Assembly (NCBI GenBank): GCA_947468785.1
Contig: CANIMS010000021.1
Location: 1-12,617 of the forward strand
DNA: 12,617 bases
Direction of reading: 5' to 3'
DNA from: Betaproteobacteria bacterium
GTDB lineage: Bacteria; Pseudomonadota; Gammaproteobacteria; Burkholderiales; Burkholderiaceae
The position numbers and the translations under genes were made by a program. Under the pieces are notes generated by a model. The model saw only the letters and a program-made list of their open reading frames with translations, did no database searches and was not told the DNA's origin. Of this stretch, positions 2,527-12,301 are shown in pieces. Within the stretch, counting starts at the first letter, position 1; every line of letters starts with the position of its first letter.

Positions 2527-3315
2527 TTAAGGCCTCACCCCTGGAGATTCCAGGGGCATACCTCGGGCTCGCCACATTAAGAATAGTTCTAGCTGAGCCA
2601 TTTCTGGTGAGCCGTAATCGAATTGTTGAGCTCGCACCCCACTCATGCAATTTCGTAAACGCCTTTGTAAAGATCCTAGCGTTTGCCACTCCAAACGATA
2701 GATAGGGTAGGCATTTGGGTGACCTTGAGGAATCAAACTTCCCCCCAACTTCAGTCCTGCTCTCTCTTCATGACATTGAGCGCAAGATAAATTGAGTTGA
2801 CCCATACGCTGATTAAACCAATCGCGCCCTTTTTGTAAAGATTCTTTATTCGCTGGCGTTTCTTTTACGGAAATCGGCATCCCTTTTGATTGGATGGCAA
2901 TTGCAGCTGTTAATGCCAAGAGATCTTTACTTTCATAGGCAAGCTTTAGTGCACCTTGTTGACCTTCTCGACATTGATTAATTTGTCCCTCGAGGGTTTG
3001 CAGTTTTCCATGGATTATTTTAGGAAATTGCGTTGCGACTCTACGCATTGATTTTTTAATATCGCCATGACAGCTTGCACAACTCTTATTTTTTGAGCCT
3101 GTCTGGGCGTGCCAAAGACTTTCTCCATCCCCAACCCAAAATAATGCAGGATTTAAGCTAGGATCATCCTGCATGGCCTTATTCTCGGCCGACATGAGTT
3201 CGTAACTAGATTGTTGTTTACTGGATTTAGTATCCGGCGCAGCATGAACAGTTACCTGCAGTAATAGTGGAGCGTATATAACGCCAAAGAGATAACGAGC
3301 TAGCTGCTGTTTCAC
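2527..3315 (-). CDS. soxA: SoxA, diheme c-type cytochrome of the SoxXA complex
   Basis: SoxA pairs with SoxX and oxidatively joins thiosulfate (or a related sulfur compound) to the carrier cysteine of SoxY in the periplasm. The 262-residue product has a signal peptide ending near HAA (24-26). It has two c-type heme motifs, CASCH (79-83) and CAQCH (178-182), so it is the diheme form; some SoxA proteins keep only one. Cys223 in RNCMSGVRAQ matches the conserved cysteine that becomes the persulfide ligand of the active-site heme. The C-terminus (LELFLMWRARGMPLESPGVRP, about 242-262) is typical of SoxA. Translation starts with GTG at 3315, overlapping the soxZ TGA, so the two are probably coupled. 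It is the last gene of the six-gene minus-strand operon. Given the variant SoxY encoded beside it, its physiological substrate need not be thiosulfate. Confidence 0.92.
   Translation of the reverse strand: MKQQLARYLFGVIYAPLLLQVTVHAAPDTKSSKQQSSYELMSAENKAMQDDPSLNPALFWVGDGESLWHAQTGSKNKSCASCHGDIKKSMRRVATQFPKIIHGKLQTLEGQINQCREGQQGALKLAYESKDLLALTAAIAIQSKGMPISVKETPANKESLQKGRDWFNQRMGQLNLSCAQCHEERAGLKLGGSLIPQGHPNAYPIYRLEWQTLGSLQRRLRNCMSGVRAQQFDYGSPEMAQLELFLMWRARGMPLESPGVRP
2538..2556. other. Perfect 7-bp stem-loop inside the 3' end of soxA
   Basis: CCCCTGG (2538-2544) and CCAGGGG (2550-2556) form a perfect stem with a 5-nt loop, within the last codons of soxA and at the junction where purU and soxA converge. 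It is the strongest inverted repeat at this junction and could slow or end transcription from either side. No T-run follows on either strand, and the bases are constrained by coding, so a terminator role is only a possibility. Confidence 0.3.
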
Positions 3316-3641
3316 GAAACGGTAATGCGCGCCTGATTCGTTGCCTCATACCCATCATCGCCCACCCACTTAAACTCCAGCACACCCGATTCAGCTGCAA
3401 TCGTCGTGAAGATCACTAATGGATTAGCGCCAATGCCTGCAAAAAAGTCTGCCTTGAACACTTCCACATTGTTATAAGTGCAGGTAAATTCACGAATGAT
3501 GTCACGGGGAATCAACTTTCCACTTTCGGTATACCGAAAGCCAGACTCCATATCGTGTTGCGCAATAGCTCGGATCTCAATGATGGAACCCTTCCTTGCC
3601 TTAGCCGGCATCGTAATAGAAGTACGTGATGTTTTACTCAT
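3312..3641 (-). CDS. soxZ: SoxZ, partner subunit of the SoxYZ sulfur carrier
   Basis: SoxZ is the immunoglobulin-like partner that dimerises with SoxY, so that SoxY's C-terminal cysteine arm can move between Sox enzymes in the periplasm. The protein is 109 residues, the normal SoxZ length. It shows the family blocks HDMESGFRYTESGKLIPRDII, FTCTYNNVEVFKADFFAGI and ANPLVIF, ending in a beta-strand core (LEFKWVGDDGYEAT). I start it at the ATG at 3641, not at the in-frame ATG at 3656. The 3641 start has GGAG 5 nt upstream, overlaps the SoxY stop in the classic ATGA arrangement, and gives the usual MSK-type N-terminus. There is no signal peptide, as expected, since SoxZ is exported together with Tat-targeted SoxY. 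Its stop overlaps the soxA GTG. Confidence 0.93.
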   Translation of the reverse strand: MSKTSRTSITMPAKARKGSIIEIRAIAQHDMESGFRYTESGKLIPRDIIREFTCTYNNVEVFKADFFAGIGANPLVIFTTIAAESGVLEFKWVGDDGYEATNQARITVS

Positions 3642-4126
3642 ACCATCTCCGTACATGCCGATAAGGTTACTAAAGTTTCAGCTGATCCTTGCCAAAAACT
3701 ACCATCGCTCATTTGCGCAATTGCCCAGACTGTTTGGCTATCAGCAAGACGAACACGTGTAGTCAGAGTGGCTGTTCCAGAGCGCGGGGTTAGAAATGCA
3801 CTAAAGATATTCGGCAAAGGATTACCTTCTGCTACTACATGAATCGCCTTGACGTAGTCATTACTTGTCATAGGGCTTTGTACGCTAACACTTAAAACCA
3901 CTAGATTGCCGTTTTCAACTAATGGTGGAATAACTAACTTGACTCGACCTTCTTTAATTGGTGAGCCACCAGTAATGGTTTTGATTGCTGCAGCAGCCTC
4001 TTCTGGTTTCGCGAAAACCAACCCAGGACTAAACCATGCTCCAACCGTGAGCATGCCAATGTTTTGGATACGCTTTAACCATTGACGCCGATTGAATGCA
4101 ATAGGAATATTCAATTTCATTTTCAT
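3638..4126 (-). CDS. SoxY-like carrier protein with a variant (AACIE-type) cysteine arm
   Basis: In true SoxY the protein ends in GGCGG and the arm cysteine carries the sulfur substrate through the Sox cycle. This 162-residue protein has the SoxY fold region (about 45-157), including GRVKLVIPPLVENGNLV and SPMTSNDYVKAIHVVAEGNPLPN. It also has a Tat-like signal with twin arginines (RRQWLK, 13-18). Its C-terminus, however, reads TLSACTEMV: the single cysteine (Cys158) is kept, but the four arm glycines are replaced and the tail runs four residues past the Cys. From memory, SoxY relatives with an 'AACIE' arm are recognised as a separate subfamily, and SACTE fits that pattern. I therefore do not give it the symbol soxY. 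It lies 8 nt after soxX and overlaps soxZ by 4 nt. The cargo is probably a sulfur compound on Cys158, but its identity is unknown. Confidence 0.87.
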   Translation of the reverse strand: MKMKLNIPIAFNRRQWLKRIQNIGMLTVGAWFSPGLVFAKPEEAAAAIKTITGGSPIKEGRVKLVIPPLVENGNLVVLSVSVQSPMTSNDYVKAIHVVAEGNPLPNIFSAFLTPRSGTATLTTRVRLADSQTVWAIAQMSDGSFWQGSAETLVTLSACTEMV

Positions 4127-4134
4127 TACATGCT

Positions 4135-4569
4135 CTATTTATTTAAGCTTACCAAGAATGCCACCACATCTTCAATCTCTTGCTCATTCAATAAAGATTG
4201 CCCGATGAACTTAGGCGCAACCCGCTGGAGATTCTGAGCTTTGTAATACGTTGGCATGATAGTGCCTGGATTAAAACGACTCGCATCCATGATACGCGCC
4301 CTTAATTGTGGAGCACTTAGACGTCCCGCGCTGATGCTTAACTCAGGCGCCAAATTCCCCTGAAAACGTTCCTCGGGAAATGGGCCGCTATGACATAGTA
4401 GACATAGTCCAGTTTGACGACTTGCAACAATTGCTCTCCCTCTTAAAGGATCGCCAGGAGATGCAGAAAGGGATTCAATCACTGAATCCCCACCTGATGT
4501 TTGAGCGTTTACTATCTCAAGATTGAGGATGACTAGCAATAATGCCGCTAGTACATGCCTCATTCTCAT
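4135..4569 (-). CDS. soxX: SoxX, monoheme c-type cytochrome of the SoxXA complex
   Basis: SoxX accepts the electrons released when SoxA conjugates its substrate to SoxY and passes them to small periplasmic cytochromes. The 144-residue protein has a signal peptide ending near VNA (20-22) and one heme c motif, CLLCH (56-60). The downstream blocks NLAPELS, RARIMDASRFNPGTIMPTYYK, with Met105 as the likely axial ligand, and LNEQEIEDVVAFLVSL are hallmarks of SoxX. The size fits the family. The ATG at 4569 is followed two codons later by another ATG (4563). Neither has a strong Shine-Dalgarno, so the exact start is uncertain by two residues. It lies 24 nt after the molybdenum subunit gene and is separated from soxA by two genes, an X-Y-Z-A order. 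Confidence 0.9.
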   Translation of the reverse strand: MRMRHVLAALLLVILNLEIVNAQTSGGDSVIESLSASPGDPLRGRAIVASRQTGLCLLCHSGPFPEERFQGNLAPELSISAGRLSAPQLRARIMDASRFNPGTIMPTYYKAQNLQRVAPKFIGQSLLNEQEIEDVVAFLVSLNK

Positions 4570-4593
4570 CGTAGTAGTGTCACGAGATGGTCG

Positions 4594-6810
4594 TTAAACC
4601 AACTTAAAGCCGCTGTTTTTCAAAGGCACAGTACGCAGGCGCTTACCGGTCGCCCGGTAAATAGCGTTGAGCACTGCTGGTGCGGCTACAGCAATAGTGG
4701 GTTCACCAACACCACCCCAGTCTTTACCGCCGCCTTGAATCAGAATGGTCTCTACCTTTGGCATTTGGTACAAACGAATCGAACCGAAAGTATCAAAATT
4801 CTTCTGCACTACAGCGCCTTTTTCAATCGTGATCTCTTCTTCGAACAGCGCTGATAAGCCATACATGAATGAGCCAGAAACCTGTCGTGCAACCTGAGCA
4901 GGATTGACTACATATCCAGGATCAGTTGCAGCAACAAAGCGATGAATTTTCACCTCATTACCATTGGTCACTGAAAGCTCACAAGCTGCGGCAACATAAC
5001 TACCAAAAGAGCGCATTTGTGCTACCCCACGGAAGACTCCAGGAGGGGCTGGCTTGGTCCAACCAATACCGTCAGCAACTGCTTTGAGGACTGCAATGGA
5101 ACGTGGATGCTTACCCATATGCTTAATACGTAACTCAACTGCATCTTCGCCAGTAGCTTCTGCAATCTCATCCATAAAGGTTTCAATAAACACTGCGTTT
5201 TGATTTACGTTCACACCCCGCCAGAAGCCAGGAGGCACGTGCGTATTTCGCATTGCGTGATCAATAGTGATATTGGGGAAATTGTAGTTAAAGCCATGTT
5301 CACCAGAGTCCTCAAGACCTTGATAGACCAATGGATCCTTACCTTTATTTGTCGCTACTACTGCTGGACGCACTGCAGCCAAAATAGACTGCCCCGATAA
5401 GCGCATGTTAATGCCGGTCACATTCTTTTTATTATCCATCGATGCAGTCAATCGGCACATCATGACGGGGTGATAACGACCTTGGGTCATATCTTCTTCA
5501 CGCGTCCAAATTAATTTAACGTGAGTACCAGGCATTTGCTTGGCAATATTCACCGCTTGAGTGGTGTAATCCTGGAATGCTCCACGACGACCAAATCCAC
5601 CGCCCAGATTAACCTTATAAGCACGGCACTTTTCTGCAGGCAATCCCGAGGCAGCAATCACTGCTGCCAAAGAAGCTTCACCGTCTTGCGTTGGCACCCA
5701 TGCTTCACAGAGTTCAGGAGACCAACGTGCAGTTGCTGTTTGTGGCTCTAGAGTTGCATGATTTAAGAATGGATAGAAATAAGTTGCCTCTATCGCTTTG
5801 TGCGCGCCCGATATAGCCGCTTTGATATCACCAAAAGAAGTGTGCACAAATCCATCAGGATGGGCAAGTCCATCTTCCAGCATCTTTTTGATCGATTCGC
5901 TAGAAACGTTTACGTTAGCACCACTATCCCAAACAATATTGACCTGGTCCATAGCGGTTTTGGCTTGCCAAAAAGTATCTGCAACTACGGCTACTGCAGT
6001 GTCGCCAACCTGGACAACCTTCTTAACGCCCTTCATTGACATGGCCTTAGCAGCATCAAAGCTTTTCACTTTGCCGCCAAAGACAGGAGATTCTTTAATG
6101 GTCGCTACTAGCATGCCAGGAAACTTTAGGTCGATAGCATAGATCTGTTTGCCAGTAACCTTATCAGCCACTCCATCAATTCGATCAACGGATTTACCAA
6201 TGATCTTCCAATCCTTAGGATCTTTTAATACGATATCCTTAGGCACTTCTAGTTGTGATGCTGCAACAGATACTTTTCCGAATGTGACCTTGCGTCCAGT
6301 TGGAACGTGGGTAATCACACTATCTTTTGCCACACATTCTAATACGGGCACATTCCACTGAGTAGCCGCTGCCTGAACTAACATCATGCGCGCTGCTGCA
6401 CCACCTTTGCGAACATATTGCTCTGAGGTCCGAATACCACGACTGCCGCCTGTTGAGAAACTACCCCACGCTAGTTTGCGCTTTAAATTTTCAGAAGGGG
6501 ATGGATACTCATAACTAACTTTTTTCCAATCGCACTCGAGTTCTTCGGCAACCATCTGGGCTAAGCCAGTGATAGTGCCTTGGCCCATTTCTGAGCGAGC
6601 GATACGCACGACCACATCATCGTTGGGCTTCACAACAACCCAAATGCCAATCTCTGGATTTTCGAGTGGCGTCATTGACGTGGTGTTATTGCCCATAGCG
6701 GCTTGAGCACTAGACATTAATGAAAAATCAAAACCAATCGCTAAGCCTGTAGCGATTGCGCTAGAGCCTACGATAAATTGGCGGCGTGAAGTATTTGTAT
6801 TTGTTGTCAT
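4594..6810 (-). CDS. Tat-exported molybdenum-binding subunit, isoquinoline 1-oxidoreductase beta-like (xanthine dehydrogenase superfamily)
   Basis: This is the large molybdenum-cytosine-dinucleotide-type subunit of a two-component periplasmic hydroxylase or dehydrogenase. I use the ATG at 6810 (AAGGGA about 6 nt upstream), which gives 738 residues and places a Tat motif SRRQF (8-12) and hydrophobic stretch at the very N-terminus. An upstream in-frame ATG at 6873 lies inside the small-subunit gene. Visible family motifs are SEMGQG (73-78), the GGGFGRR cofactor loop (403-409), PPGFWRGVNVNQNAVFIE (526-543) and GVGEP (700-704), whose Glu703 matches the catalytic glutamate of the superfamily. The length, the Tat signal and the absence of a FAD subunit gene fit the IorAB or membrane-bound aldehyde-dehydrogenase branch, which passes electrons to cytochrome c. 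The substrate cannot be read from sequence. It is followed directly by soxX. Confidence 0.9.
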   Translation of the reverse strand: MTTNTNTSRRQFIVGSSAIATGLAIGFDFSLMSSAQAAMGNNTTSMTPLENPEIGIWVVVKPNDDVVVRIARSEMGQGTITGLAQMVAEELECDWKKVSYEYPSPSENLKRKLAWGSFSTGGSRGIRTSEQYVRKGGAAARMMLVQAAATQWNVPVLECVAKDSVITHVPTGRKVTFGKVSVAASQLEVPKDIVLKDPKDWKIIGKSVDRIDGVADKVTGKQIYAIDLKFPGMLVATIKESPVFGGKVKSFDAAKAMSMKGVKKVVQVGDTAVAVVADTFWQAKTAMDQVNIVWDSGANVNVSSESIKKMLEDGLAHPDGFVHTSFGDIKAAISGAHKAIEATYFYPFLNHATLEPQTATARWSPELCEAWVPTQDGEASLAAVIAASGLPAEKCRAYKVNLGGGFGRRGAFQDYTTQAVNIAKQMPGTHVKLIWTREEDMTQGRYHPVMMCRLTASMDNKKNVTGINMRLSGQSILAAVRPAVVATNKGKDPLVYQGLEDSGEHGFNYNFPNITIDHAMRNTHVPPGFWRGVNVNQNAVFIETFMDEIAEATGEDAVELRIKHMGKHPRSIAVLKAVADGIGWTKPAPPGVFRGVAQMRSFGSYVAAACELSVTNGNEVKIHRFVAATDPGYVVNPAQVARQVSGSFMYGLSALFEEEITIEKGAVVQKNFDTFGSIRLYQMPKVETILIQGGGKDWGGVGEPTIAVAAPAVLNAIYRATGKRLRTVPLKNSGFKLV

Positions 6811-6820
6811 GTCTATTCCC

Positions 6821-7270
6821 TTATGCTTTGCTGACAGCATGAATCGCGGCGCGTACTTCTTGGAAAGTTCCACAACGACAGATGTTGGTTACCGCAGCAT
6901 CAATCTGTGCATCAGTAGGCTTAGGGGTATTACGCAATAATGCAGTGGTGGCCATCACCATTCCGGATTGGCAGTAACCGCACTGTGGTACTTGGTTATC
7001 AACCCAGGCTTTTTGTACTTTAGAAAGCTGGCCGTTTTTCTCCAGACTTTCGATTGTTTCGATTTTCTTACCTGCAGCGGCAGATACTGGAATAGCGCAG
7101 CTTCGGAGGGCCTGGCCATCAAATAAGACAGTGCAAGCGCCGCAGACACCAATACCGCATCCATATTTAGTGCCAGTTAAACCTACCTGCTCACGAATCA
7201 CCCAAAGCAAGGGAGTATCGGGATCTACATTAATCTTGTACTTCTTGCCGTTGATATTTAAATCGGCCAT
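6821..7270 (-). CDS. [2Fe-2S] small subunit of the molybdenum hydroxylase (IorA-like)
   Basis: The 149-residue protein carries two [2Fe-2S] clusters that move electrons away from the molybdenum site of the partner subunit encoded 10 nt downstream. The N-terminal plant-ferredoxin-like cluster is bound by Cys38, Cys43, Cys46 and Cys58 (YGCGIGVCGACTVL). The second, in the helical C-terminal domain, is bound by Cys97, Cys100, Cys131 and Cys133 (CGYCQSGM and ICRCGT). All eight ligands are present. It has no signal peptide, so it is probably co-exported with its Tat-tagged partner, as usual for this family. The ATG at 7270 has a strong AGAGGAG Shine-Dalgarno (7284-7278) 7 nt upstream. As first gene of the minus-strand operon it should lie next to the promoter. 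Confidence 0.94.
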   Translation of the reverse strand: MADLNINGKKYKINVDPDTPLLWVIREQVGLTGTKYGCGIGVCGACTVLFDGQALRSCAIPVSAAAGKKIETIESLEKNGQLSKVQKAWVDNQVPQCGYCQSGMVMATTALLRNTPKPTDAQIDAAVTNICRCGTFQEVRAAIHAVSKA

Positions 7271-7401
7271 GAATTCTCTCCTCTAGGCATTTCTTATAGT
7301 TGAGGCTTATTTGATAAAGCCCCTGCTTTTGGTGTGCTTATCTTAACGAAGAATTCAATTATTGCTATGCAACATAAATGTGGGGGCAGTAAGATCAATG
7401 C
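7271..7401. promoter_or_regulatory. Divergent intergenic region between the Mo/Sox operon and the LrgAB-like pair
   Basis: This 131-base gap is AT-rich and must hold start signals for both directions. For the minus-strand operon I see a good Shine-Dalgarno and a possible -10-like TATAAG in the leader, but no convincing -35. For the plus strand there is TTGATA (7311-7316), but no -10 box at the right distance. Two inverted repeats stand out. One is GGCTT (7304-7308) with AAGCC (7317-7321). The other is the compact TTGC-TAT-GCAA (7362-7372), which could be an operator for a shared regulator. No regulator gene is in the window. Exact promoters are not assigned. Confidence 0.5.
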
Positions 7402-7749
7402 ATGATTTCTGGTCTGGTCCAAATCCTACTTTTCCAAAGCATTGGAGAGTTAATCTCTCAATTTTTACTACCCACTCTTCCGGGGCCTGTTATAGGGCTA
7501 GTTCTCTTGGTTTTATGGCTAGTGCTGCGTAAGGGCGTCAATGCCGAGCTAGCCATGGTGGCTGATGGCTTTAGTCAATATCTTGGTCTTCTTTTCGTAC
7601 CAGCTGCTGTTGGTGTAGTGCTGTTTTTACCCCAGCTTAAGGCGAATGCCGTTGCCATTCTTGGCGCCTTGATTGGCAGCGTAGTCTTAACGATTGCGTC
7701 AAGCGCATTAGTAGTGCGCCTTCTCAGCAAAGAATCTGTGAATGAGTGA
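7402..7749 (+). CDS. CidA/LrgA family membrane protein
   Basis: The 115-residue product is a small integral inner-membrane protein with about four hydrophobic helices. It carries the family signature around LPTLPGPVIGLVLLVLWLVL (24-43), then FVPAAVGVVLF (65-75) after a short loop. CidA/LrgA proteins were first described as holin-like regulators of autolysis. With LrgB/CidB-type partners, relatives in Bacillus and streptococci have been linked to pyruvate uptake, which may fit the pyruvate-dependent aminotransferase encoded downstream. The ATG at 7402 has no good Shine-Dalgarno; a GGGGG run (7382-7386) is rather distant. The gene overlaps the next by 8 bases, so both subunits are likely made together. 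Confidence 0.9.
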   Translation: MISGLVQILLFQSIGELISQFLLPTLPGPVIGLVLLVLWLVLRKGVNAELAMVADGFSQYLGLLFVPAAVGVVLFLPQLKANAVAILGALIGSVVLTIASSALVVRLLSKESVNE

Positions 7750-8470
7750 AAAACATTCCATCGTTGAGATTTGGGTCTACCTATCTGGAAGCCCCCTATT
7801 CGCCTTATTTATTACTCTGGCAGCGTTTCAGATCGGTCTTTCGATTTACAAAGCTAGCAAACAAAATCCTTTAGCTAATCCTGTAGCAATCGCTATTCTT
7901 CTGGTGGCCTGCATTATTCAGGGTATTGAGATGCCCTATTCCACTTACTTTGAGGGCGCTCAATTTATTCACTTTTTATTAGGCTCCGCAACTGTATCTT
8001 TAGCTATCCCCATTTACCGCGGCTTAAGTAGCCTGAAAGGTCGCTCTATTCCCCTGGTGTTTTCTTTGGCAACTGGCGGTCTGGTGTCCATTATTAGTGC
8101 GGTTGGAATTGCACAGCTACTGGGCGCTGATTCCAGCATTACCGGTGCGATGTACCCTAAATCAGTCACGGCACCGATTGCGATGGGTATCGCTGAGCGC
8201 ATTGGTGTTTCACCAACCCTCACTGCCATCTTTGCAGTCAGCACCGGCATCATGGGGGCAATTTTGGCGCCCTTTGTTCTCAATGCCCTTGGAATGAAGG
8301 CTTGGTGGCAAAGAGGCTTTGCAATTGGCATTGGCGCTCATGGAATCGGCACTTCCCGGGCCTTTAGTATTCACCCTGAAGCGGGTACTTATGCCAGCCT
8401 GGCTATGGGTTTAAATGGCGTGATCAGCGCGGTAGCGATCCCAGTGATTTATCACCTCTTTAATCAGTGA
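7742..8470 (+). CDS. LrgB/CidB family membrane protein
   Basis: This 242-residue polytopic membrane protein is the normal LrgB length. Conserved blocks visible are AIYRGL-like AIPIYRGLSSLKG (88-100), the PKSVTAPIAMGIAERIG segment (139-155), the GIMGAILAP turn (168-176) and GIGAHGIGTSRAFSI (195-209), which is strongly diagnostic of LrgB. It begins inside the last codons of the CidA/LrgA gene, showing that the two form one transcription and translation unit. They likely form a complex in the inner membrane, either a holin-like modulator of cell lysis or a transporter of small oxoacids such as pyruvate. The sequence alone does not decide between these. Confidence 0.92.
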   Translation: MSEKHSIVEIWVYLSGSPLFALFITLAAFQIGLSIYKASKQNPLANPVAIAILLVACIIQGIEMPYSTYFEGAQFIHFLLGSATVSLAIPIYRGLSSLKGRSIPLVFSLATGGLVSIISAVGIAQLLGADSSITGAMYPKSVTAPIAMGIAERIGVSPTLTAIFAVSTGIMGAILAPFVLNALGMKAWWQRGFAIGIGAHGIGTSRAFSIHPEAGTYASLAMGLNGVISAVAIPVIYHLFNQ

Positions 8471-8519
8471 CTTACTATACTGAGTCATCAGCAGAAATAC
8501 ATTAGAGACTAGTTAATTT

Positions 8520-9656
8520 ATGAATATTCCAGATCCAATCAAGCTAACCCAAGATCTCATTCGCTTTAATACGATCAATCCACCAGGCAATGAAGATGAG
8601 CTTTGCGATTACTTAACGCAACTATTAGAGTCTGCTCATTTTGAATGCATGAATGTCGACTTTGCCCCCAGACGACGCAGTGTCGTAGCGCGCATTCCCG
8701 GCAAACCGGGTAAAGCCAATATTTGTTTTACTGGCCACGTTGATGTAGTTCCTCTTGGAGATCGTCAATGGGACTTTGATCCATTTGGCGGTGAAATTTT
8801 GGATGGCAAGCTTTATGGACGTGGTTCGAGTGATATGAAAAGTGGCATTGCGGCATTTGTGGTGGCCGTTATGCGAACCGCTGAGCTCTCCAAAAATGGT
8901 AATGGGGTAAGTCTCATCATTACCGCGGGCGAGGAGACGGGCTGTGAAGGCGCGTTTTTTATCGCCGCACAAAAACAGGTGATCGATTTCATTGGCAATG
9001 TGGGCTGCTTCATCGTTGCAGAGCCAACTGCGAATGAGCCCATCATTGGTCATAAGGGAGCTTATTGGCTCAGAGCAAAAGCAGAAGGCATTACAGCGCA
9101 TGGCTCAATGCCTGAACGTGGTGATAACGCATTCTTTAAAATTGCTAAAGGTGCACTGGTGATGGAGCAGTTTACGTTTGATACTCCGCCTCACGATTTA
9201 ATGGGTCAAGGAACGATTAATGTAGGCACTGCTAAAGCAGGCCTCAATATCAACTCCGTACCCGATGCAGCTGAAATGACTTTAGATATTCGTACCGTAC
9301 CTGGACAAAGTCACAAACACATTTACGGCTGCTTATGTAAGGCGCTTGGCCCCAATATCACACTAGAGACCATCATGGATGTTGAGGGTATTTACACCCC
9401 GCCAGACCATCCTTGGATCAAAACCGTATTTGCTCAATGCCAGGAGATCAATGGCGTAGAAGCAAGTCCTAAATCAATCTCTTACTTTACGGATGCATCG
9501 GCGCTAAAGGGCCTCATTGGAGATCCTCCAACAGTGGTCTTGGGCCCAGGGCAACCCGAAATGGCTCATCAAACCAACGAATTTTGCTATACCGAGAAGA
9601 TTAGCCAAGCCACTACCCTTTTTGAAAGGCTTATCATTGATTGGCACAAACATTGA
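8520..9656 (+). CDS. M20 family metallohydrolase, ArgE/DapE-type deacylase
   Basis: This cytoplasmic dizinc amidohydrolase has 378 residues, the usual size for ArgE/DapE proteins. All key residues by analogy with DapE are present: His73 and Asp75 in FTGHVDVVP, bridging Asp105 in GRGSSDMKSG, base Glu138 and ligand Glu139 in TAGEETGCEGA, Glu168 in VAEPT, and His350 in PEMAHQTNE. His194 (TAHGSMP) in the dimerisation domain completes the active site. Such enzymes remove acyl groups (acetyl, succinyl, formyl) from amino acids or diamines. A true DapE for lysine synthesis would usually sit in a biosynthetic setting. Here it heads a catabolic run, so an N-acyl amino acid deacylase role is more likely. 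No clear Shine-Dalgarno is seen, and it follows the LrgB gene by 49 bases. Confidence 0.9.
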   Translation: MNIPDPIKLTQDLIRFNTINPPGNEDELCDYLTQLLESAHFECMNVDFAPRRRSVVARIPGKPGKANICFTGHVDVVPLGDRQWDFDPFGGEILDGKLYGRGSSDMKSGIAAFVVAVMRTAELSKNGNGVSLIITAGEETGCEGAFFIAAQKQVIDFIGNVGCFIVAEPTANEPIIGHKGAYWLRAKAEGITAHGSMPERGDNAFFKIAKGALVMEQFTFDTPPHDLMGQGTINVGTAKAGLNINSVPDAAEMTLDIRTVPGQSHKHIYGCLCKALGPNITLETIMDVEGIYTPPDHPWIKTVFAQCQEINGVEASPKSISYFTDASALKGLIGDPPTVVLGPGQPEMAHQTNEFCYTEKISQATTLFERLIIDWHKH

Positions 9657-9677
9657 TCACACAGAGGTACACCTAAT

Positions 9678-11039
9678 ATGAAAATTGAGACATCCCAATT
9701 CAAAGATTCTGACTCAGCAGCCAATGCCATCAATATGGATGCTTATTGGATGCCCTACACACCTAATCGTTACTTTAAAAGTAAACCCAAGATTATGGTG
9801 GCCGCTAAAGGGATTTACTACACAGATGATCATGGACGTCAATTATTTGATGGCGCATCTGGTCTTTGGACTTCGCCTTTAGGTCATGGTGACCCACGCA
9901 TTATCGAAGCCATTCAAAAGCAGTACCAAAAAATGGATTATGTTCCCGCCTTTCAAATGGCTGGGCCAGAGACGTTTCGCCTCGCCGAAAGAATTACTCA
10001 GTACGCACCAGCAGGTTTAAACAAAGTATTTTTTGTGAACTCAGGTTCTGAGGCAGTTGATACTGCACTTAAAATGGCCATTGCCTATCATCGCGCCAAA
10101 GGCGAAGCGAGTCGCGTTCGCTTTATAGGTCGTGAACGTGCCTATCATGGTGGCTGTATTGGCGGCATCTCGGTTGGCGGAATTCCTACCAATAGAAAAT
10201 CCTTTGGTGCCATGATGGTCCCCGGAGTTGATCACCTCCCCCACACCCTCAATCTTTCTCAGATGGCTTTTTCAAAAGGGATGCCCACTTGGGGCGCTCA
10301 CTTAGCCGATGAATTAGAGCGCATTGTGGCGCTGCACGATGCCAGCAATATTGCTGCCGTCATTTTGGAGCCCGTTCAAGGCTCTACTGGTGTGATTGTT
10401 CCACCGGTTGGCTACTTACAAAAAATACGTGAGATCTGTGACAAACATGGCATGCTCTTGATTTTTGATGAAGTCATTACTGGCTTTGGTCGCCTGGCTG
10501 CCAATTTTGGCGCAGATCGTTTTGGCGTTAAACCAGACATGATCACTTTTGCTAAAGCCATTACCAATGGCGTCATCCCCATGGGTGGCGTTATCGTGCG
10601 TCAAGATATTTATGACACGATCGTCAATGCTGGTGGCCAAGAACAACTCGTTGAGTTTTTCCATGGCTTTACCTACTCGGGTCATCCGATTGCTACTGCC
10701 GCAGCACACGCCGCACTAGATATCTTTGAGAACGACGGCATCATGGAAAAAACCAAAGTATTGGAAAAGGTTTTGGAGGATGGAGTTCACTCTTTCAAAG
10801 GTATGAACGGAATACTAGACATTCGTAACTGCGGCCTAGCAGCAGGATTGGATTTAGAGCCAGTTGCTGGAAAACCTGGACTGCGAGGTATGCAAGTCCT
10901 TGAAAGCTGTATAGAGAATGGCATCTTGGTTCGCATCACTGGGGATACCATTGCACTTGGGCCACCCTTTGTTGCTACACCTGCTGAACTCCAATCTTTC
11001 CTTGAGACCTTTAACAAGGTTCTCAAGAAGGCATTTTAG
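9678..11039 (+). CDS. Class III aminotransferase, omega-amino acid (beta-alanine):pyruvate type
   Basis: This is a PLP-dependent fold-type I transaminase of 453 residues. The N-terminal WMPYTPNRYFKSKPKIM block (24-40) and LFDGASGLWTSPLGHG (56-71) resemble BauA-type beta-alanine:pyruvate aminotransferases. The PLP phosphate region NSGSEAVDTALKMA is at 121-134 and AYHGG at 155-159. Asp264 in LIFDEVITGFGR contacts the pyridine nitrogen, and Lys293 in TFAKAITNG is the Schiff-base lysine. It likely moves the amino group of an omega- or beta-amino acid, or an amine, onto pyruvate. AGAGGT at 9663-9668 serves as ribosome binding site, 21 bases after the deacylase gene. The carbamoylase-like gene starts two bases after its stop. 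Together they fit deprotection of an amino compound followed by deamination. Exact substrate unknown. Confidence 0.9.
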   Translation: MKIETSQFKDSDSAANAINMDAYWMPYTPNRYFKSKPKIMVAAKGIYYTDDHGRQLFDGASGLWTSPLGHGDPRIIEAIQKQYQKMDYVPAFQMAGPETFRLAERITQYAPAGLNKVFFVNSGSEAVDTALKMAIAYHRAKGEASRVRFIGRERAYHGGCIGGISVGGIPTNRKSFGAMMVPGVDHLPHTLNLSQMAFSKGMPTWGAHLADELERIVALHDASNIAAVILEPVQGSTGVIVPPVGYLQKIREICDKHGMLLIFDEVITGFGRLAANFGADRFGVKPDMITFAKAITNGVIPMGGVIVRQDIYDTIVNAGGQEQLVEFFHGFTYSGHPIATAAAHAALDIFENDGIMEKTKVLEKVLEDGVHSFKGMNGILDIRNCGLAAGLDLEPVAGKPGLRGMQVLESCIENGILVRITGDTIALGPPFVATPAELQSFLETFNKVLKKAF

Positions 11040-11041
11040 TT

Positions 11042-12301
11042 TTGAGCAGCGCAAGCCCATTACGCGATCTTCGAGTACGCGGAGACAGACTCTGTCACTC
11101 GCTGCTTGAGCTTGCTCAAATTGGAGCTACTAAAAAAGGTGGTGTTTGCCGACTTGCACTGACAGATCTGGATCAACAAGGTCGTCTATGGGTGGTAGAT
11201 AAAGCTCTTCGCTTAGGTTTGGAGATCACTACCGACCAAATTGGCAATACCTTTATGCGTCGTCCAGGAAAGAATACGCAGCTTGCTCCCATCATGACTG
11301 GCAGCCATATCGATACACAACCTACCGGCGGTAAATATGATGGCAATTATGGTGTACTTGCCGGTCTAGAGGTCATTGAAACACTCAATGATCACGGAAT
11401 TGAAACTGAGGCTCCGATTGAAGTGGTGTTTTGGACGAATGAAGAAGGTTCCCGCTTTACTCCCGTAATGATGGGCTCAGGAGTTTTTGCGGGAGTGGTC
11501 AGTCTAGAACATGCTTATGAAGCATCCGATATCGCTGGCAAAAAAGTGAAAGAAGAATTGCAACGTATTGGTTTTCTTGGAGAGCAAGTACCTGGTGAAC
11601 ATCCTTGTGGCGCTTACTTTGAGGCCCATATTGAACAAGGCCCCGTGCTTGAAAATAAAGACAAAGTCATTGGCGTAGTACCTGCTGTTATGGGTTTACG
11701 TTGGTTTGATTGCACGGTACAAGGCTTTGAGGCTCACGCGGGCCCAACACCTATGGATATTCGCATTGATGCTCTACAACATGCGACAAGCATTATGCAA
11801 AGGGTCGTGGCCATAGCCAACGAATTTAAGCCCCATGGTAGAGGTACGGTTGGCATGGTTCAGGTATTTCCGAACAGCCGAAATGTGATTCCCGGCCAAG
11901 TGCAATTTTCAATTGATATACGGCATCCCGATGCTGCAACACTAGAAAAGATGACTTCCCTATTGAAGGAATACATTGCACAAGTATCGAAGGAAAAATC
12001 CATTGCCATCGATTTAAAGGAAGTGTCGTACTTTCCGCCATGTAATTTTGATGCCAATTGCGTTGATACGATTCGGCAAGCAGCCATTGACTTGGGCTAC
12101 TCTCAAATGGATGTGGTATCGGGAGCTGGCCATGATGCTATCTACATGAATCGTTTAGCGCCTACCGGAATGATTTTCATACCCTGTAAAGATGGTGTTA
12201 GCCATAACGAAATTGAAGATGCTAAGGCCGAACATCTCGAAGCTGGGGCCAATGTTCTACTCCACTCCATGCTGGCATTTGCTAAGCCAATTCATCGCTA
12301 A
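11042..12301 (+). CDS. Zn-dependent M20 amidohydrolase, hydantoinase/carbamoylase family (TTG start)
   Basis: The 419-residue protein belongs to the group of N-carbamoyl-L-amino acid hydrolase, beta-ureidopropionase and allantoate amidohydrolase. Metal ligands are all visible: His89 (TGSHIDTQPTGGKYDG), Asp100, Glu135 (NEEGSRF), His196 (AHIEQGP) and His388 (DGVSHNE). The dimer-domain block FEAHAGPTPMDIR (229-241) and GAGHDA (361-366) are also typical. The most likely reaction is release of CO2 and NH3 from an N-carbamoyl amino acid. With the beta-alanine-type transaminase beside it, beta-ureidopropionate is an attractive substrate, but allantoate or another ureide is possible. No ATG or GTG lies upstream or near the N-terminus in frame, so TTG at 11042 is the best start, with AAGAAGG (11025-11031) 10 nt upstream. 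It begins two bases after the aminotransferase stop. Confidence 0.9.
   Translation: MSSASPLRDLRVRGDRLCHSLLELAQIGATKKGGVCRLALTDLDQQGRLWVVDKALRLGLEITTDQIGNTFMRRPGKNTQLAPIMTGSHIDTQPTGGKYDGNYGVLAGLEVIETLNDHGIETEAPIEVVFWTNEEGSRFTPVMMGSGVFAGVVSLEHAYEASDIAGKKVKEELQRIGFLGEQVPGEHPCGAYFEAHIEQGPVLENKDKVIGVVPAVMGLRWFDCTVQGFEAHAGPTPMDIRIDALQHATSIMQRVVAIANEFKPHGRGTVGMVQVFPNSRNVIPGQVQFSIDIRHPDAATLEKMTSLLKEYIAQVSKEKSIAIDLKEVSYFPPCNFDANCVDTIRQAAIDLGYSQMDVVSGAGHDAIYMNRLAPTGMIFIPCKDGVSHNEIEDAKAEHLEAGANVLLHSMLAFAKPIHR

Follow-up and report, generated by a model that had tools for sequence, protein, structure and literature searches.

A xanthine-dehydrogenase-family molybdenum hydroxylase paired with a SoxYZ-type carrier: a candidate carrier-bound oxidation system

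Introduction

What does a molybdenum (Mo) hydroxylase of the xanthine dehydrogenase family do at the head of an operon of sox genes? The question is raised by a 12,617-nucleotide (nt) stretch of DNA, here called the window (positions 1 to 12,617 of contig CANIMS010000021.1, assembly GCA_947468785.1, from a Betaproteobacteria bacterium placed by GTDB in the Burkholderiaceae). In it, iorA and iorB, which encode the Mo hydroxylase IorAB, run into soxX, a soxY variant, soxZ and soxA. The original prediction, made from the letters of this stretch, saw a unit of Mo hydroxylase and soxXYZA that oxidises a carrier-bound compound. Its picture of the mechanism is right in outline, and its overall interpretation is partly supported.

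The six-gene module is very probably a real functional unit, and it suggests a carrier-bound oxidation system that is still uncharacterised. As a whole it is best explained, tentatively, as a module for oxidation in the periplasm, built around IorAB and a SoxYZ-type carrier that has a non-canonical arm.

Conservation of the IorB-SoxY pairing

The original prediction asked whether the pairing holds across genera; it does. Within the genus, the SoxY variant is present at 150 bits or more in 26 of 37 genomes, and IorB adjoins it, upstream on the same strand, in 24 of these 26. The remaining two are a genome in which the contig ends at the locus (G022) and one that has lost iorAB, leaving soxX face to face with lrgA (G030). 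None of the 11 genus genomes lacking the variant has an IorB at 70% identity or above: eight have no IorB at E 1e-60, two have only a distant one (G017, G032), and G015 has a divergent version of IorB paired with a divergent SoxY of its own. The same six genes stand among other neighbours in G003 and G025.

The pairing extends through the order. In a sample of 399 genomes, the SoxY variant (threshold E 1e-25) occurs in 70, at 78 sites that span 27 of 158 genera, and 67 of these sites have an IorB no more than 6 kb away, 64 times upstream on the same strand and three times divergently. The 11 sites without IorB include three with a GGCGG arm (L118, L119, L179), which are therefore canonical SoxY, one at a contig edge (G275) and four second copies whose genomes hold a further iorAB-soxYZ locus (G165, G203, G296, G382). 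A reverse search of the same 399 genomes, which scored no more than two IorB candidates in any genome and in which related genomes are not independent, places a SoxY variant within about 6 kb of 63 of 87 IorB sites (E 1e-185). Both genes are present in 66 genomes, IorB only in seven, the SoxY variant only in four and neither in 322; both thus occur in 66 of the 77 genomes having either. A separate observation concerns L117, L175, L176 and L177, where soxXYZA without iorB is preceded by a small protein resembling an S-adenosylmethionine-dependent methyltransferase; these genomes have another iorAB-soxYZ locus.

Wider samples separate the paired variant from other SoxY proteins. In the class sample (369 genomes), seven genomes have a SoxY match at E 1e-25, the window's own included, and the other six matches have GGCGG, GAGGCG or GAGACG arms and no IorB nearby. 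One of the SoxYZ loci seen (L111, 8481-11431), with a GAGGCG arm, lies beside an eight-haem cytochrome, resembling the SoxY-S3 context of a 2024 study (PMC11237559). The phylum sample comprised 398 genomes, with SoxY places compared with IorB matches at E 1e-120. All 15 sites of at least 150 bits outside the genus have an IorB of at least 53% identity upstream, at a distance of up to about 2.2 kb. The arm is of the ACxx type at every one of them, and FccB, the flavoprotein of sulfide dehydrogenase, accompanies 14. Among the weaker phylum sites, IorB lies within 6 kb at none of 32, and the three that were opened (L109, L113, L114) have GGCGG arms, two of them beside soxB.

Of 454 relatives that a pattern scan turned up in GTDB contigs, the best 80 were retained. 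The scan query was made from IorB-linked sequences, so this set is biased to close relatives, and six of the 80 duplicate the DNA of loci already in the genome samples. In 75 of these best 80 named contigs iorB is in the locus, and in the other five the locus runs off the contig, with less than 1.7 kb before soxY. The contig titles name many Bradyrhizobium, Telmatospirillum siberiense and three metagenome-assembled genomes of Candidatus Rokuibacteriota; two plasmid records, from Neorhizobium galegae and a Methylobacterium sp., carry the module as well. No SoxB was found in the fetched stretches of these 82 records, and a pattern scan of viral contigs gave no relative of the SoxY variant. The pairing thus recurs across families, classes and, going by contig title, a second phylum, and the adjacency of Mo and sox genes is not confined to this strain.

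The pair is also retained in varied arrangements: on the same strand, divergent (G038, G171, G209) and convergent (L046, L049). In the last two, from the same genus (L046, 6001-10811; L049, 6816-12738), a second version of the module has iorAB convergent to soxXYZA, with FccB in L049.

On an IorB tree, SoxY-linked IorB proteins spread through one clade with solo IorB scattered among them, and one linked row (L169) groups with the outgroup. The label "linked" needs 14 changes by a quick method, against a mean of 21.8 in shuffles; L055, scored as solo in this count, lies at the edge of a contig and has soxZ and soxA next to it. We read this as a linkage that is probably old and has been lost or gained repeatedly. 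Exclusivity of the IorB clade to the SoxY variant is ruled out by the same 14 changes and by the 24 of 87 IorB sites that have no SoxY variant nearby.

The operon and its proteins

Open reading frames together with Pfam and NCBIfam scores bear out the six genes on one strand, the minus strand, in the predicted order. The gene for the [2Fe-2S] subunit, iorA (6821..7270), comes first, followed by iorB (4594..6810), which encodes the Mo-cofactor subunit, exported by the twin-arginine translocation (Tat) pathway. The frame of iorB is open from a GTG at 6873, and the ATG at 6810 matches the start in relatives. Next come soxX (4135..4569), the soxY variant (3638..4126), soxZ (3312..3641, its frame having earlier been started at 3656) and soxA (2527..3315). 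With iorB taken from the ATG, the intergenic distances from iorA to soxA are 10, 24, 8, −4 and −4 nt, as the gaps and overlaps had first been given. A terminator scan gave no minus-strand terminator-like site in the operon gaps, its three minus-strand matches all lying inside coding sequence. The ratio of nonsynonymous to synonymous substitution rates is at most 0.32 for each of the six genes wherever it could be computed; synonymous sites are saturated for pairs involving the window, and the ratios for soxZ and soxA come from pairs of relatives only.

The enzyme belongs to the xanthine dehydrogenase family by its domains and motifs. IorA has the two [2Fe-2S] domains (Pfam Fer2 and Fer2_2, with a C-x4-C-x2-C-x11-C motif). 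IorB has MoCoBD_1 and MoCoBD_2, an RRQFI Tat motif, and the motifs for the Mo cofactor and the catalytic glutamate, GGGFGRR and GxGEP (here GVGEP). It stays below the named NCBIfam equivalog cut-offs for XdhA, 4-hydroxybenzoyl-CoA reductase, PaoC and CO dehydrogenase, the best being XdhA at 158.6 bits against 780. The closest solved structure, by sequence and by fold, is 8gy3_C. A model of IorB built from 14 sequences, with a mean predicted local distance difference test score of 76.7, served for the fold search only, and there 8gy3_C ranks first with a TM score of 0.81 and 27% identity over the fold match.

The carrier departs from the known type. The arm of the window's SoxY ends in SACTEMV, not GGCGG, and its cysteine is invariant in an alignment of 14 diverse relatives. 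The protein falls short of the true-SoxY model (TIGR04488, 91.1 bits against a cut-off of 125) and passes the curated cut-off of TIGR04487, the "SoxY-related AACIE arm protein" of NCBIfam (214.9 against 172). SoxZ is likewise below the true-SoxZ cut-off (TIGR04490, 72.0 against 76), yet it reaches that of Pfam SoxZ (77.6 bits). SoxX, a mono-haem c-type cytochrome with a CLLCH motif, and the dihaem SoxA both pass canonical Sox cut-offs (TIGR04485, 72.7 against 61; TIGR04484, 223 against 110); SoxX has no Pfam match. SoxA aligns to 1h31_A with its CASCH and CAQCH haem motifs kept, and it also keeps a cysteine at the position of the haem-ligand cysteine of 1h31. Judged from sequence, SoxXA looks catalytically complete. 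Because of this, and because the operon has no gene for a flavin adenine dinucleotide (FAD) subunit, cytochrome c is the likely electron acceptor, as had been proposed.

The absence of soxB and soxCD had been noted too, and here the locus and the genome must be kept apart. The window has no SoxB in a six-frame search with the SoxB profile, and SoxC lies outside it; SoxD was not searched. The host genome (1.72 Mb and 74.8% complete), presumably a Polynucleobacter judging by gene content and size, has SoxB on another contig (C87), beside SoxZ, SoxA, SoxX and a SoxY with a GGCGG arm, and its sole SoxC over the cut-off on a third (C232). The genes soxB and soxC are thus lacking from the locus, not from the organism. 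The same genome holds a second IorAB pair (contig C88; L048, 1986-4265), with an IorB 49% identical and no sox genes on its 6.8-kb contig, and many genomes of the genus hold an IorB at 48-50% identity.

Upstream of iorA, a divergent spacer of 131 nt (7271..7401) separates the operon from lrgAB on the plus strand. It is presumed to be the operon's promoter region; it has no sigma-70-like match. Positions 7402-12301 carry lrgAB followed by genes for an M20 deacylase, an omega-aminotransferase and a carbamoylase-type hydrolase, which may be an unrelated operon for nitrogen compounds. At the other end, 92-730 is the C-terminal end of a penicillin-amidase family gene, clipped by the window start.

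Locus forms and the constant core

Which parts of the module are constant? Features within 5 kb of soxY were tabulated for 96 SoxY-like loci: 78 have iorB, six have soxB, 12 have neither and none has both. The six soxB loci are all GGCGG-armed and without iorB, while no iorB locus is GGCGG-armed. The iorB loci take three forms: iorAB-soxXYZA, as in the window; iorAB-(cytochrome)-FccB-soxXYZA; and iorAB-soxYZ alone. These forms differ in SoxXA and FccB, so IorAB and SoxYZ are the constant core and the other two are frequent additions. Of the predicted unit, then, the dedicated link to a SoxYZ-type carrier stands, whereas SoxXA is outside the invariant core: at 26 of the 96 loci iorAB-soxYZ has no SoxXA alongside it. 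A few of these 26 stop close to the end of a contig, so that a SoxA might escape notice, but the slot between iorB and soxY that is usual for soxX is empty.

A second sox cluster (soxX, soxY, soxA) exists elsewhere in all seven iorAB-soxYZ-only genomes that were opened, with GGC-type arms where the gene call is clear and no soxB in the stretch. In L294-L300 a separate soxX-soxY-soxA cluster stands beside moaC-like genes, with a TusA-like protein in some loci. As a candidate sign of coevolution between SoxXA and the arm, CG arms were counted in 14 of 22 iorAB-soxYZ-only loci and in none of 50 that include SoxXA, after truncated loci had been removed by means of a list of eight. This is a single change on the IorB tree, so the difference is no independent evidence and the candidate was rejected.

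FccB occurs in loci of Bradyrhizobium, some Burkholderiales and Rokuibacteriota. All three FccB proteins tested have both FCSD Pfam domains, which ties the extended module to sulfur. In some relatives iorB is followed by a small one-haem cytochrome; the two tested are below the Pfam cut-off.

The module does not follow SoxB. Outside the genus, 23 of 76 genomes that carry the variant have no SoxB at E 1e-130, some of these 23 being incomplete; among good-quality genomes the count is 16 of 63. G274 and G333, with a GGCGG arm next to soxB, were left out of the 76. The set without SoxB includes all seven genomes of one genus (g13), all three of another (g6) and all four of one family (f265). A dependence of the module on SoxB is thus not supported, and its product need not be SoxB-released sulfate.

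Proposed mechanism and alternatives

The substrate, we infer, is a sulfur-containing organic compound. SoxXA would join the cysteine of the SoxY arm to a sulfur compound, most likely an organic thiol, and so form a mixed disulfide. IorAB would then hydroxylate the carbon adjacent to the sulfur by its usual C-H chemistry, and the C-S bond would break to give an aldehyde or acid and an arm-bound persulfide. Its sulfane sulfur could be removed by FccB and its cytochrome where present; elsewhere, as in the window's own genome, separate Sox enzymes or thiol exchange may do so. Electrons from IorA, SoxXA and FccB would pass to c-type cytochromes. Oxidation at carbon is preferred because carbon hydroxylation is the chemistry of the IorAB family. 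This particular C-S chemistry of organic thiols is possible but short of probable, and the pathway in full, with SoxXA tying the thiol, the Mo enzyme hydroxylating the alpha-carbon and FccB or Sox enzymes taking the persulfide, is doubtful. On the favourable side stand the conservation of the pair, the FCSD domains of FccB, the Mo-cofactor and catalytic-glutamate motifs of IorB, the genomes in which no SoxB was found, and two single cases: in L107 an XdhC-MobA fusion sits two genes beyond soxA, and in G023 soxA, soxZ, soxX and iorB are all fragmented and no iorA was found, with only soxY left open.

Several points weigh against this reading. Because 26 loci have no SoxXA, a linked SoxXA cannot be what loads the carrier in every case, and the window has no FccB. 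IorAB copies without a SoxY variant nearby are common (the 24 of 87 sites), and three order genomes (G326, G415, G131) are real exceptions in the other direction, with soxXYZA loci that have no adjacent iorB. Within the genus, G030 retains an intact soxXYZA after the loss of iorAB, and the fragmented genes of G023 could be assembly faults. In G387 SoxB lies about 12.7 kb from the SoxY variant on the same contig. No constant further neighbour was seen that reveals a source of thiol. To our knowledge, C-S cleavage by enzymes of the xanthine dehydrogenase family is not established.

The rival that survives best places the module in carbon metabolism: IorAB would be an aldehyde dehydrogenase, and the SoxYZ variant would hold or deliver the aldehyde as a thiohemiacetal, or protect the enzyme. 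The closest structure is indeed the aldehyde dehydrogenase of Gluconobacter, iorAB-soxYZ-only loci occur, and PMC11237559 places SoxYZ-S2/S4 beside pyrroloquinoline quinone-dependent alcohol and XoxF methanol dehydrogenases, with a proposed role in carbon metabolism. For loci without SoxXA this account is nearly as good as the organosulfur pathway. Overall it is unlikely: SoxXA, with its thiol-disulfide chemistry, and FccB, a sulfide dehydrogenase, indicate sulfur in many loci.

Alternatively, as the comparison with SoxCD in the original prediction suggests, the Mo hydroxylase might replace SoxCD and oxidise the sulfane sulfur on the SoxY arm. In either case a Mo enzyme adjoins a SoxYZ carrier; soxCD is missing from the locus, and in G007, G011 and G016 the operon occurs without a SoxC over the cut-off. 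This is rather improbable. IorAB comes from a different, carbon-hydroxylating family of Mo enzymes; SoxC is present in the window's own genome; and in the genus SoxC over the cut-off is similarly frequent with the SoxY variant (21 of 26) and without it (9 of 11). The 23 of 76 genomes described above gave no SoxB, on which sulfate release in the known Sox cycle depends.

A third account makes SoxYZ a servant of the cofactor. The Mo site of this family needs a sulfido ligand, and the SoxYZ variant could restore the terminal one by donating sulfur in the periplasm, with SoxXA and FccB loading sulfane from thiosulfate or sulfide. This accounts for the constant core, a sulfido-Mo enzyme and a sulfur carrier, and for the optional SoxXA and FccB. 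It is nevertheless very improbable, since those 24 of 87 IorAB sites manage without a SoxY variant nearby, and L107 has an XdhC-type maturation gene close by, an XdhC-MobA fusion two genes beyond soxA. In L106 and L107 more Mo-cofactor genes presumably follow, judging by the starts of their sequences.

Least probable of all is that the genes are co-regulated neighbours with no joint chemistry, for although solo IorAB and IorAB-less soxXYZA both occur, the pairing is conserved over classes in several gene arrangements and both genes are present in 66 of the 77 genomes having either.

Relation to known systems and implications

A comparison of the module with the Sox thiosulfate-oxidising system shows a shared set of tools. 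Both have SoxXA and SoxYZ homologues, a cysteine on a carrier arm, periplasmic export and electron flow to cytochrome c. They differ in the arm, in the Mo enzyme of the xanthine dehydrogenase family, in the lack of soxB and soxCD from the locus and in the genomes with the variant in which SoxB was not found. The name TIGR04487 covers the carrier only, and several IorAB-linked relatives score below its cut-off.

The enzyme shares the Mo-subunit fold and motifs with the membrane-bound aldehyde dehydrogenase of Gluconobacter oxydans (8gy3) and with IorAB-type enzymes, and its FeS subunit is of the IorA type. Aldehyde dehydrogenases of the AldFGH type are defined by a multi-haem cytochrome c subunit. 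The window's operon has no gene for one; sox genes stand in its place.

No description of the module appears in the titles and abstract openings of the papers that full-text literature searches listed. The nearest likeness, in PMC11237559, is SoxYZ-S2/S4, where divergent SoxYZ is linked to a dehydrogenase of another family; those proteins differ in being SoxYZ fusions and in their dehydrogenases. The SoxY phylogeny of that 2024 paper removed sequences without a "GGC" motif, a stated filter by which arms like the window's would have been dropped. According to PMC5748708, one of the two soxY genes of B. diazoefficiens, soxY1 in sox locus I, is essential for thiosulfate oxidation and the other, soxY2, is not. 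Strain SZCCT0423 of this species carries the module described here (L293), so soxY2 is probably its carrier.

The sox genes are often taken as a sign of thiosulfate oxidation. Here a large, conserved set of them goes with a different carrier arm and a different Mo enzyme, sometimes where no SoxB is found, and metagenome counts of soxA, soxX, soxY and soxZ may therefore overstate that process. If the proposed pathway is true, IorAB would be, as far as we know, the first case in its family of a Mo hydroxylase that acts on a protein-tethered substrate. The module would open a new route for organic sulfur in which SoxYZ is newly used as a tether, and it would reveal a hidden organosulfur trait in many heterotrophs, among them Polynucleobacter-like bacteria, Bradyrhizobium and Rokuibacteriota.

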